Source of the DNA: Candidatus Woesearchaeota archaeon
GTDB taxonomy: Archaea; Nanobdellota; Nanobdellia; Woesearchaeales; UBA12501
Reading direction: 5' to 3'
Assembly: GCA_030651375.1 (NCBI GenBank)
Contig: JAUSFM010000016.1
Location: forward strand, 1-64,000
Length of the DNA stretch: 64,000 nt
Shown: in pieces, positions 3,351 to 22,611 of the stretch
Layout of the letters: every line of letters begins with the position of its first letter
Numbering within the stretch: the stretch's first letter is position 1
The notes under the pieces: generated by a model
The model's database searches: none
What the model was told of the DNA's origin: nothing
What the model saw: the letters and a program-made list of their open reading frames with translations, nothing else
Translations under genes and position numbers: made by a program

Positions 3351-3950
3351 ATGATTCACGCAATCAAAAAATACATCAAGCAGGAACTCAAGAAGGGATA
3401 CTCACTGCCTATTGTCAAGGAAGAGCTGAAACACAAGGGATTTTCTGATGATGAAATCGCCAGCGCACTCTATGAGACCACCACACCGCGTATTTCATTC
3501 CTCCATCTGCTAGTGCTCATCCTTGGCCTTGTCACACTTGATTCAATTTTGGGCACAGTGTTTCTTGCCGTGCCACTCGGCATGGTTTCGGTCATTGGTA
3601 GATATCTTATCCTATTTCTAATCCCGCTCCTGCTCGGCTTGCTTAATTATTGGATTATCGGCCAAGCAGTGGTTGATGACCTTGAAAAAAATCTGGCAGG
3701 CATTGTCACACCGCTGCCACTGGTTTTTCTCCTGCATAATTTCTTGAGCTTCAACAATCTCCTCGTGCCGCTCGGTGCAGGAATCGCAGCACTCTGGTAC
3801 GCAGCAGCGCATCTTATTCCTTTTATTATTGAGAACATCGAAGAAAAAGACCACCCGTGGGTATGGCTCGTTCTCGCCGCAGCATGCATTGGCGTAACGC
3901 TGCTTGCAACACAGCTCATTAACGTATTTGCATTTGTCAGGTTCAACTAA
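3351..3950 (+). CDS. Membrane protein with four to five predicted helices, unknown function
   Basis: This 199-residue protein has a soluble N-terminal helical segment (residues 1-45, Lys/Glu-rich) like the short helical domains that often precede archaeal membrane proteins. Hydrophobic segments follow at about 48-75, 82-110, 118-150 and 170-195. No catalytic residues or transporter signature are evident. It is directly downstream of the AbrB-like gene with no gap, so the pair probably forms an operon. The A-rich spacer 3951-4034 contains the ribosome site of the next gene. Confidence 0.7.
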   Translation: MIHAIKKYIKQELKKGYSLPIVKEELKHKGFSDDEIASALYETTTPRISFLHLLVLILGLVTLDSILGTVFLAVPLGMVSVIGRYLILFLIPLLLGLLNYWIIGQAVVDDLEKNLAGIVTPLPLVFLLHNFLSFNNLLVPLGAGIAALWYAAAHLIPFIIENIEEKDHPWVWLVLAAACIGVTLLATQLINVFAFVRFN

Positions 3951-19949: not shown

Positions 19950-20279
19950 ATGACAACCGACATCAGCCATCCCGTACGGAATGCGTTTCAGGAACTGGGG
20001 CACCGAGCACGCGTTGCGGCGACCAGCGCCTATGTTGCGCTTCCTTTTCTGATGGCGAGTGTGCCGAGTGTTGCGTATGGGCATGAGACAGGAGAGGCGC
20101 ATTCGCATATAGGTGATCATTGGGTAGCGGTTAGTATTGCCGCAGGTCTTGCCGGTACAGTTATCTATAAGGGGACTAATTACGCTACGAGAGCTCGTTC
20201 ACCGACTGCCCGATTTGTTGCTCATGCAGCCACTGTAGCCACTCTTAGTGCTATGGCCATTGCTGCAAATTATTTGTAA
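19950..20279 (+). CDS. Small membrane protein with SVAYGHETG motif, paralog 1
   Basis: This 109-residue protein has a hydrophobic segment at about 25-40, then SVAYGHETGEAHSHIGDH, then two more hydrophobic segments (52-70 and 88-108). The His cluster directly after the first hydrophobic segment resembles metal-binding N-termini of exported proteins. A paralog lies at 20918-21238; the block around the motif is about 86% identical at DNA level (77 of 90 bases by my alignment), while the rest has diverged. A TATA-like TATTTAAAG lies about 27 nt before the ATG. Function is unknown. Confidence 0.6.
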   Translation: MTTDISHPVRNAFQELGHRARVAATSAYVALPFLMASVPSVAYGHETGEAHSHIGDHWVAVSIAAGLAGTVIYKGTNYATRARSPTARFVAHAATVATLSAMAIAANYL

Positions 20280-20377
20280 ATTAATGAGAGAATTTTTTCT
20301 TTCACAACCCAATATTTCCCATAACCTTCTCCTTGTCAAACAATTGCTTTAAATAGAAAAAGAGTTTGTGTTCTGGT

Positions 20378-20689
20378 ATGCCCTACACTCTTGTTTTTGA
20401 TGAGGTGATGAAAAAACAGCTCGTCAAAGCGGCAAAGAACCAGCAGCTGAAAGAAATGTTGACGGCTATGTTTGACGAAATTGAGCAAAAGGGTCCTGAC
20501 GCTGGTGTGCTCGTTGATTCTCATTTGTTTATCTATGAAATGAAGAGCAAACATCCGCCCGTTCGGCTCTATTTCAAACATCACCTTGCGACAAACGAAA
20601 TGTATGTTTTTGAGTTTGAAATGAAAACAAGCCCTAAAAAACAAAAAAAGACGATTAACAAACTACGGTTTAAGGCAGGAAATCTTTAG
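20378..20689 (+). CDS. RelE/ParE-like toxin candidate
   Basis: This 103-residue basic protein has a RelE-superfamily layout: YTLVFDEVMKKQL strand-helix, a second helix (LKEMLTAMFDEIEQKG), then strands LFIYEMKS, VRLYFKHH and MYVFEFEMK, and a Lys-rich end. RelE-fold members cut ribosome-bound mRNA, while ParE-like ones hit gyrase; residues do not decide between them. A TATA-like CTTTAAATAG lies about 27 nt before the ATG at 20378. The antitoxin-like gene is on the opposite strand, overlapping its stop by 4 bp, instead of upstream in an operon. Confidence 0.6.
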   Translation: MPYTLVFDEVMKKQLVKAAKNQQLKEMLTAMFDEIEQKGPDAGVLVDSHLFIYEMKSKHPPVRLYFKHHLATNEMYVFEFEMKTSPKKQKKTINKLRFKAGNL

Positions 20690-20838
20690 AATCCGACATC
20701 TTTTCGGGTGAACTTTTTTCCGTCAGCAAGATTTCGCTCAAATTCACATAACCGCTGGTATAATGAGGTCTGGCGAAGTGTTTCAAGCTCGGTCTGCATC
20801 TGCTTATATTCCTGTTTTGGAATAGTTACTGTTTCCAT
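20686..20838 (-). CDS. Antitoxin-like protein, 50 residues
   Basis: The ORF from the ATG at 20838 encodes METVTIPKQEYKQMQTELET and continues to 50 residues with a helical, charged middle and a KKFTRKDVGF end. The start (VTIPKQEY + helix) is typical of archaeal RelB-like antitoxins. It is tail-to-tail with the RelE-like gene. Its TATA element is one arm of the inverted repeat at 20862-20895, which it shares with the paralog gene on the plus strand. Confidence 0.6.
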   Translation of the reverse strand: METVTIPKQEYKQMQTELETLRQTSLYQRLCEFERNLADGKKFTRKDVGF

Positions 20839-20861
20839 ATTATATAAGAATGTTCATCTTC

Positions 20862-20895
20862 TTTATATACTTTTCGCCACCAAAAAGTATATAAA
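20862..20895. promoter_or_regulatory. Inverted repeat containing two divergent TATA elements
   Basis: TTTATATACTTTT (20862-20874) is the exact reverse complement of 20883-20895, with an 8-nt spacer. Each arm holds a TATA box, one placed about 25-30 nt before the antitoxin start at 20838 and the other before the paralog start at 20918. The symmetry would let one bound dimer control both genes. Confidence 0.6.
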
Positions 20896-20917
20896 AGCAT
20901 GTTAGTTTCTCATAAAA

Positions 20918-21238
20918 ATGGACATCGGCCAAAGAACAATAGAAATTGCACGCGACGTTGGACACCGTGTACAACAGGCAGCAACAAGCGCCTATGTTAC
21001 ACTTCCGATTCTGATGGCGAGTGCACCGAGTGTTGCGTATGGGCATGAGACGGGACAGGCGCATCAACATCCGGTTTCACCGTATGAACTTGTATTCTTA
21101 ATCGGAGGCATTAGTTTAGGAACAGATCTTATCAAACTTGGTTGCACATCTGATTATAATAGAAAATCTGCTGGAGCGTGCATTAGTACAGGAGTTGCTT
21201 TGCTTGTTGGAACACTAGCATATGCTTCATCGCATTAA
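20918..21238 (+). CDS. Small membrane protein with SVAYGHETG motif, paralog 2
   Basis: This 106-residue paralog of the protein at 19950 has a hydrophobic segment at about 24-42, SVAYGHETGQAHQHP, and further hydrophobic segments at about 55-75 and 85-103. The His residues of the cluster (H-x5-H-x-H pattern) are kept in both paralogs. The message appears leaderless from the TATA arm at 20883-20895. It ends 8 bp from the ftsY stop on the other strand. Function is unknown; secretion with metal binding is a guess. Confidence 0.6.
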   Translation: MDIGQRTIEIARDVGHRVQQAATSAYVTLPILMASAPSVAYGHETGQAHQHPVSPYELVFLIGGISLGTDLIKLGCTSDYNRKSAGACISTGVALLVGTLAYASSH

Positions 21239-21246
21239 GAAATAAG

Positions 21247-22611
21247 TCACAGCCCAATACTTCCCATAACCTTCTCTTTATCAAACACTTCCAAATCATC
21301 GTACTTCTGGCCAGTGCCAAAATAAGAAATTGGTTTCTTGGTGATGTACGAAACAGAGAGCGCTGCACCACCTTTTTCATCAACATCTGCCTTTGTCAGA
21401 ATGATACAATCAAATGAAATCGCCTCATTAAACGTCCGTGCCTGTTCAACGCAGTCGTTGCCCGTGATGCTTTCGCCGACAAAAATCTTGAGGTCAGGTT
21501 TCGCAACCCGCACAATTTTTTTCATTTCGTCAATCAGGTTGGTGTTGCTGTGCATCCGGCCGGCGGTGTCAATCAGCACAACGTCAATGCTTTTTGCGTG
21601 GGCGTATTTTACCGCGTCGAATGCGACGGCAGCAGGATCCGCACCATAATCGTGCTTGATAACTTTGACGCCCAGCTTTTCGCCGTGCTCCTCAAGCTGC
21701 TGAATGGCAGCGGCACGGAACGTATCCGCAGCCGCAATGACAATTGTCAGATTATGTTTCTTCAACAAGTGCGCCAGTTTTGCAATCGTGGTTGTTTTTC
21801 CGCTGCCGTTGATGCCGACGAACGAAATGATGAATGGCTTTTCTTTTTTCTGCTTGATGCGAGCGAACAAATCAATAGAAGGGAGGTCAAAAAGGTCTGA
21901 TACAGAGTGTTTGAGTGTTTTCTGGATATGCTCTTCAAGTTTGCCACGCGGGATGCGTTGTGCCACGAGACTTTTTTTCAGGTCATCGCGGATTTTGTCG
22001 ATGACTTCGACCGCGACGTTGTTTTCCAAGAGCGCAATTTCAAGATCGCTAAAGACGTCTTCAAATTTGTCGTCTGACAGCGTGGTGGTCGTGATGGATT
22101 CTTTGAAGCGGGTGAAAAAGCCTTTTTCTTTGGATACTTCTTCGGTTTCTTCAGATTCTTTTGGTTCTTCTTCACGCTCTTCTGATTCAGCTTCTTCCTC
22201 TTCTTCAGATTCTTCTTGTTCTCCTTCTTCAGCTTTTGTTGGTTCTTCTTTTTCTTCTTTAAAGATGCTTTCTTTCAGCCGTGAGAAAAATCCTTTCTTT
22301 TCTTCTTTTGGAGTTTCTTTTGTTTCTTCAGCAACTTCTTTTTCTTTTGGCAGTTCTGTGATTTCTTCAAGTAGTGCTTGTTTTTGTTCTTCTTGTACTG
22401 GTTTTTCTTTTTGAGGTTTTTTCTCTTTTTTAATTTTTATCAGCGTTTCTTTTTTCTGCCCCTTTATGTTTTCTTTTGCCTTTTCCTTTGTTGCCGGCTT
22501 TTTTTCTGTTTTCTTTTCTTTTTTTTCTATAGTTTTCTCTGATTTTTCATCTACGTCTTGTGTAAACTTTTTCAGCGCGTCCTTCAGTTTATCTTTTAGA
22601 AATCCGAACAT
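21247..22611 (-). CDS. ftsY: Signal recognition particle receptor FtsY
   Basis: This 454-residue SRP receptor GTPase pairs with SRP54 at the membrane. Residues 1-175 form an extremely Lys/Glu/Ser-rich A domain, longer than usual and probably flexible. The NG domain follows with GINGSGKTTT at about 263-272, DTAGRMHSN and TKADVDEKGGAALS. The P-loop GSGKTTT and the closing GTGQKYDDLEVFD are canonical. Its ATG at 22611 overlaps the prefoldin gene end by one base, in an aIF6-prefoldin-FtsY operon. Confidence 0.95.
   Translation of the reverse strand: MFGFLKDKLKDALKKFTQDVDEKSEKTIEKKEKKTEKKPATKEKAKENIKGQKKETLIKIKKEKKPQKEKPVQEEQKQALLEEITELPKEKEVAEETKETPKEEKKGFFSRLKESIFKEEKEEPTKAEEGEQEESEEEEEAESEEREEEPKESEETEEVSKEKGFFTRFKESITTTTLSDDKFEDVFSDLEIALLENNVAVEVIDKIRDDLKKSLVAQRIPRGKLEEHIQKTLKHSVSDLFDLPSIDLFARIKQKKEKPFIISFVGINGSGKTTTIAKLAHLLKKHNLTIVIAAADTFRAAAIQQLEEHGEKLGVKVIKHDYGADPAAVAFDAVKYAHAKSIDVVLIDTAGRMHSNTNLIDEMKKIVRVAKPDLKIFVGESITGNDCVEQARTFNEAISFDCIILTKADVDEKGGAALSVSYITKKPISYFGTGQKYDDLEVFDKEKVMGSIGL

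Follow-up and report, generated by a model that had tools for sequence, protein, structure and literature searches.

A putative RelE-like toxin gene and its putative antitoxin gene lie, in a genome of a Candidatus Woesearchaeota archaeon, between two copies of a segment composed of a small membrane-protein gene (P) and the 3′ end of ftsY. The two copies of P, P1 and P2, most likely represent both halves of an old duplication which the toxin pair created or maintained, rather than working partners of this pair. The movement of toxin-antitoxin pairs without a visible transposon is an open question, and long flanking duplications provide a footprint that can be counted across genomes.

The P gene and the 3′ end of ftsY are repeated on both sides of the toxin pair

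The window, i.e. the whole 64,000-nucleotide stretch that we analysed, belongs to a genome of 1.30 Mb in 23 contigs. The region of interest reads aIF2-gamma (+), a 146-aa ORF (−), P1 (+), the toxin gene TOX (+), the antitoxin gene ANT (−), P2 (+) and ftsY (−), and the window also contains prefoldin-like and eIF6-like genes and TATA-box promoters. Together with aIF2-gamma and ftsY, these features identify the genome as archaeal, and its gene content suggests DPANN as the probable group. The gene ftsY (21247-22611, − strand), which codes for the SRP receptor GTPase (SRP54 Pfam domain, E = 1.9×10−73), terminates with 44 bp (21247-21290, −) reading VFDKEKVMGSIGL up to the stop codon. A displaced copy of these last 44 bp (14 codons including the stop), which the first-pass annotation had not mentioned, is found at 20302-20345 (−) between P1 and the TOX promoter. 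It reads LFDKEKVMGNIGL followed by the stop codon, is identical to the intact end at 39 of 44 positions (89%), and stops at 20345, immediately before the TOX promoter. Three of the five differences are silent, and the displaced end codes for GNIGL compared to GSIGL in the intact gene, several relatives having NIGL. No further match to the 44-bp ftsY end was found within the window. P1 (19950-20279, +) and P2 (20918-21238, +) contain a repeated block that recurs in the same order as the ftsY end, at closely similar offsets: the P blocks are 962 bp apart and the ftsY ends 945 bp. Since the ftsY end is repeated too, a segment containing the P gene and the ftsY 3′ end flanks TOX and ANT on both sides in the same order, P1 belonging to its left copy and P2 to its right copy.

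No transposase-sized ORF was found between the repeats in the window. Integrases often target gene 3′ ends and the repeat starts right at the stop codon of ftsY, as site-specific integration with the 44-bp repeat as attachment site would have it, yet such an event is highly improbable: the 945-bp element contains no integrase, the repeat also takes in P upstream of the 44 bp, and other modules (see below) are located at unrelated targets, which include both the 3′ end of a gene and a promoter region.

P1 and P2 share a tract of low silent divergence

P1 and P2, which code for proteins of 109 and 106 aa, respectively, exhibit 43% identity overall. Both genes are intact and share PSVAYGHETG followed by HSH or HQH, in agreement with the first-pass description of two paralogs having a SVAYGHETG motif and spaced histidines. 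The reported 90-bp block with 13 differing bases is exact and corresponds to the best ungapped window (20019-20108 compared to 20981-21070). A repeat scan of the window returned a 105-nt repeat (82%, 962 bp apart), while blastn aligned 78 bp at 89.7% (E = 2×10−21). We then compared codons at positions where both genes code for the same amino acid, M and W being set aside. Within codons 26-53 (20025-20108 in P1 and 20987-21070 in P2, both +), which span the signal or first membrane segment and HETGEAHSH, 20 of 22 such codons were identical, compared to 5 of 20 outside this tract, a chance level given the 6.7 expected from codon usage (Fisher P = 2×10−5; P = 3×10−4 by label permutation, corrected for scanning every window). 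The block is therefore more than a conserved peptide, and the observation that the rest of the genes diverged while the block stayed similar extends to silent sites. The check for gene conversion proposed along with that observation thus revealed a gene-conversion-like tract, and we read the silent-site pattern as that of recombination or gene conversion within an older pair. We also considered and rejected a lasting silent-site constraint on the block: P5, a third family member described below, shares codons with P1 and P2 at chance-like rates (6/25 and 9/27), and this lack of silent-site conservation against either gene makes a lasting constraint on the DNA unlikely.

Outside the tract the halves of P are saturated, while the ftsY fragment, which looks unselected, is still 89% identical. 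A duplication of a single age therefore needs either later recombination or an incoming diverged allele. In the latter case, a foreign segment carrying the toxin pair, a diverged P allele and the ftsY end would have integrated one-sidedly, by ftsY homology on one side and illegitimate joining on the other, leaving P1 and the displaced ftsY end as resident remnants. We regard this event as rather doubtful; it accounts for a divergence between P1 and P2 outside codons 26-53 far above that of the ftsY repeat, and for the resemblance of the displaced ftsY end to a coding allele in its mostly silent differences and its GNIGL, which resembles the NIGL of several relatives, but no donor with a toxin pair adjoining P was found, and 100% identical repeats such as that of locus L071 (see below) are left unexplained.

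TOX and ANT probably form a convergent toxin-antitoxin pair

TOX (20378-20689, +) codes for a putative 103-aa toxin of the RelE superfamily, an assignment based on an AlphaFold2 (AF2) model, Foldseek and a family alignment. The AF2 model reached a pLDDT of 90.9, and its top Foldseek match was E. coli RelE (E = 1.1×10−4, probability 1.00), YoeB and HigB2 being matched as well; the RelE-like toxin annotated between the paralogs is thus substantiated by a predicted RelE fold. Searches of the window TOX against Pfam, NCBIfam and PADLOC returned no significant family, and a single one of 19 family members weakly matched Gp49 among curated models. Sequence searches for TOX in the PDB and in plasmids returned nothing. 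TOX homologs were detected in 20 of 378 genomes of the class and 30 of 315 genomes of the order, two sets that overlap; their distribution is patchy and most share 50-67% identity.

ANT (20686-20838, −) codes for a putative 50-aa antitoxin and overlaps the 3′ end of TOX by 4 bp. A conserved ANT of about 50 aa was identified in 36 TOX loci, most other TOX matches being located at contig ends or broken, and in all 36 it is convergent with TOX. The two genes probably form a toxin-antitoxin pair. In the window (20378-20838) as in loci L038-L041, L071-L089 and L145-L159, the 3′ ends of the convergent genes overlap or lie a few bp apart, and a TATA box is mostly visible upstream of ANT.

The predicted fold of TOX and the presence of a small adjoining partner gene wherever the antitoxin is identifiable are shared with type II systems of the RelE/HigB/YoeB kind. 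Unlike these systems, in which toxin and antitoxin form one co-directed operon, TOX and ANT converge and their 3′ ends touch or overlap, and the window TOX matches none of the Pfam, NCBIfam or PADLOC families significantly. This layout is unusual for a type II pair and is open to antisense control. Convergent, 3′-overlapping transcripts are known from the type I systems Fst/RNAII and BsrG/SR4 (PMC3874152), whose layout TOX and ANT resemble. However, TOX is predicted to be a RelE-fold protein rather than a small hydrophobic peptide, and the ANT side encodes a conserved 50-aa protein.

P has almost no relatives and was not found beside other toxin pairs

Profile searches of the class with two profiles revealed a single relative of P1 and P2, namely P5, in one genome of 378. 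P5 belongs to a genome of another family, has the same size as P1 and P2, contains three hydrophobic segments and retains the pattern AT-x-YV-x-LP...MA..P..A; it has neither an adjoining toxin nor the His motif. P1 and P2 have no other relatives in their own genome, and no real match was found among 60 relatives, the family of genome G325, the genome_contigs set, viral contigs and phages. P is also absent from the ftsY loci of genomes of the same family. Weak matches at L005, L091-L094, L103 and L108 were rejected from ORF lists, as they overlap other genes, are interrupted or have no matching ORF. On these searches, P appears to be almost an orphan.

Hydropathy and charge profiles indicate an N-terminal hydrophobic segment ending with PSVA-YG or PAQA-G, followed by two membrane segments split by a basic loop; the end of the first segment is plausibly a signal-peptidase site or simply the end of a first membrane segment. 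In P1 and P2 this segment is followed by a His-rich outer stretch. An AF2 model of P1 built from three sequences had a pLDDT of 50 and agreed with the profiles on three helices only, which made it unsuitable for a fold search. P would thus most likely be a small exported protein whose hydrophobic export signal, or first membrane segment, is followed by a His-rich outer stretch and then by two membrane segments. With three hydrophobic segments each, P1 and P2 are probable membrane proteins, as annotated at first. Their annotation as metal binders was a guess: since the His motif is present in P1 and P2 but absent from P5, metal binding by these two proteins is possible and would not be a feature of the family.

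ANT and P2 are indeed divergent, with their starts back-to-back and 79 bp apart. The divergent core promoters of ANT (−) and P2 (+) contain a perfect 13-bp inverted repeat (20862-20895; TTTATATACTTTT at 20862-20874 and AAAAGTATATAAA at 20883-20895), whose arms resemble archaeal TATA boxes placed back-to-back, each as far from its start codon as is usual for such a box. We rejected this repeat as a conserved antitoxin operator, as the palindrome was not seen upstream of ANT in other loci. Regarding the shared regulation proposed in the first-pass annotation, the divergent ANT/P2 promoter therefore stands, while an upstream palindrome is not kept in the other loci.

That annotation had further pointed to an unfamiliar module linking a membrane/metal-binding duplicate to a toxin pair. 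In such a module P1, P2 and the toxin pair would cooperate, for instance if two metal-sensing membrane proteins controlled the toxin by way of the divergent promoter. Tight linkage and the 79-bp promoter region with its perfect inverted repeat are compatible with such a module, which we nevertheless judge very unlikely given that toxin pairs occur elsewhere without P, that P5, the sole other relative, lacks both a toxin and the His motif, and that the repeat consists of two TATA-like boxes not kept upstream of ANT. Searching related genomes for P beside a RelE-like toxin, as had been suggested, returned no such pairing outside this window; specifically, when the first 25 toxin loci were searched with P1 and P2 by tblastn, none had a P homolog next to TOX and ANT. 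A duplicated target segment accounts better for the position of P1 and P2 on either side of the toxin pair.

Direct repeats flank some of the other TOX/ANT pairs

We surveyed both flanks of each TOX/ANT pair for direct repeats (E up to 10−6) within 300 bp, using pseudo-positions from the same fetched loci as controls; the 300-bp threshold was set after the first cases had been seen. Flanking direct repeats were detected at 6 of 35 modules compared to 3 of 247 control positions, two of the three positive controls being the window itself. Exclusion of the window left 5 of 34 modules and 1 of 245 controls (Fisher P = 1.1×10−4), or 7 of 34 and 5 of 240 at 700 bp (P = 1.1×10−4). Leaving out the shortest repeats (22 and 33 bp), which may be due to chance, reduced the 300-bp counts to 3/34 and 1/245 (P = 0.006). 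The remaining 29 of the 35 modules have no detectable flanking repeat.

The repeat at L071 (79 bp, 100% identity) duplicates the promoter region of a glycosyltransferase gene together with its start codon. At L039 (133 bp, 75%) it is the end of a pfkB-like gene, on the 3′ side, that is repeated, and the displaced copy can still be read as protein. At L150, a 92-bp repeat (2241-2332 and 3512-3603, 99%) comprises a promoter and start codon, with the left copy located 0.66 kb from the pair. An intact gene copy accompanied by a displaced fragment thus recurs for ftsY in the window, the pfkB-like gene at L039 and the glycosyltransferase start at L071. No empty site, i.e. a relative with a single repeat copy, was found, and the glycosyltransferase-MTAP gene order at L071 is not conserved across the family concerned (that of G084). 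Judged from these sequences, the duplication is probably tied to the toxin pair. The copies of the L150 repeat lead into two unrelated-looking coding sequences (MNSNAPSL.. and MNDGKPSL..), recalling the constant and variable mosaic of P1 and P2.

Tandem duplications are common, and P and the ftsY 3′ end could have been duplicated in this way before a toxin pair landed by chance between the copies. The absence of flanking repeats at most TOX/ANT modules and a P/ftsY duplication that is not of one apparent age speak for such an order of events. We consider it unlikely, as the pair lies exactly at the joint of the copies, with the left ftsY fragment ending beside the TOX promoter, and as other members of the TOX family have flanking repeats at a higher rate than control positions do.

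Insertion of a cassette with target duplication

On balance, we think it somewhat probable that a TOX/ANT cassette inserted with a long target duplication that copied P, and that recombination later affected codons 26-53. A single P gene would originally have adjoined the 3′ end of ftsY. A selfish cassette of about 550-600 bp, containing two convergent genes each with its own promoter, would have entered the P/ftsY junction, and its insertion would have been accompanied by, or fixed along with, the direct duplication of some 370-400 bp comprising P and the last 44 bp of ftsY, giving the order P1 - ftsY 3′ fragment - toxin/antitoxin - P2 - ftsY. Since recombination between the repeats would also remove the antitoxin, the toxin pair would protect the duplication, and we infer that addiction selected against deletion between the repeats. 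The copies of P would then have diverged, except that a gene-conversion-like tract over codons 26-53 left one block with few silent differences. The mismatch in age within the P1/P2 mosaic is the weakest point of this account and limits our confidence in it.

That the insertion caused the duplication is suggested by analogy. PMC3874152 and PMC3031569, citing Nobusato et al. 2000 and Furuta et al. 2010, describe restriction-modification genes that have no linked mobile element and whose insertion is accompanied by long target duplications of variable size, about 100 bp. The toxin pairs share with them an addictive gene pair, the absence of a visible transposase and flanking direct repeats, long and variable, in which one side of the target is duplicated, a common footprint that makes cassette insertion with target duplication the simplest account. 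They differ in that the pair is here an archaeal toxin-antitoxin pair, that the duplication in the window is big enough for a whole gene and that no empty site was found. More tentatively, a minimal convergent toxin-antitoxin pair of about 550-600 bp without transposase may be an archaeal mobile element that inserts with long target duplications and by addiction keeps the resulting new gene duplicates, such as P1 and P2, which recombination would otherwise remove. If addiction does keep duplications, genomes would gain new paralogs through toxin pairs, as with the membrane-protein gene duplicated here.

Multiple copies and remnants of the pair

Two contigs carry two TOX/ANT copies each. The copies are 2.6 kb apart in L077 (3411-3851 and 6023-6469) and about 5.2 kb apart in L041 (1367-1630 and 6598-6903), where the first toxin is truncated. 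Remnant modules at L088 (3022-3253) and L089 (2530-2762) retain an intact ANT and the 3′ end of the toxin alone, suggesting that the toxin decays first. In L083 (1394-3652), many copies of a short noncoding motif, TAAAATTATTGTAAAG, surround a toxin pair.
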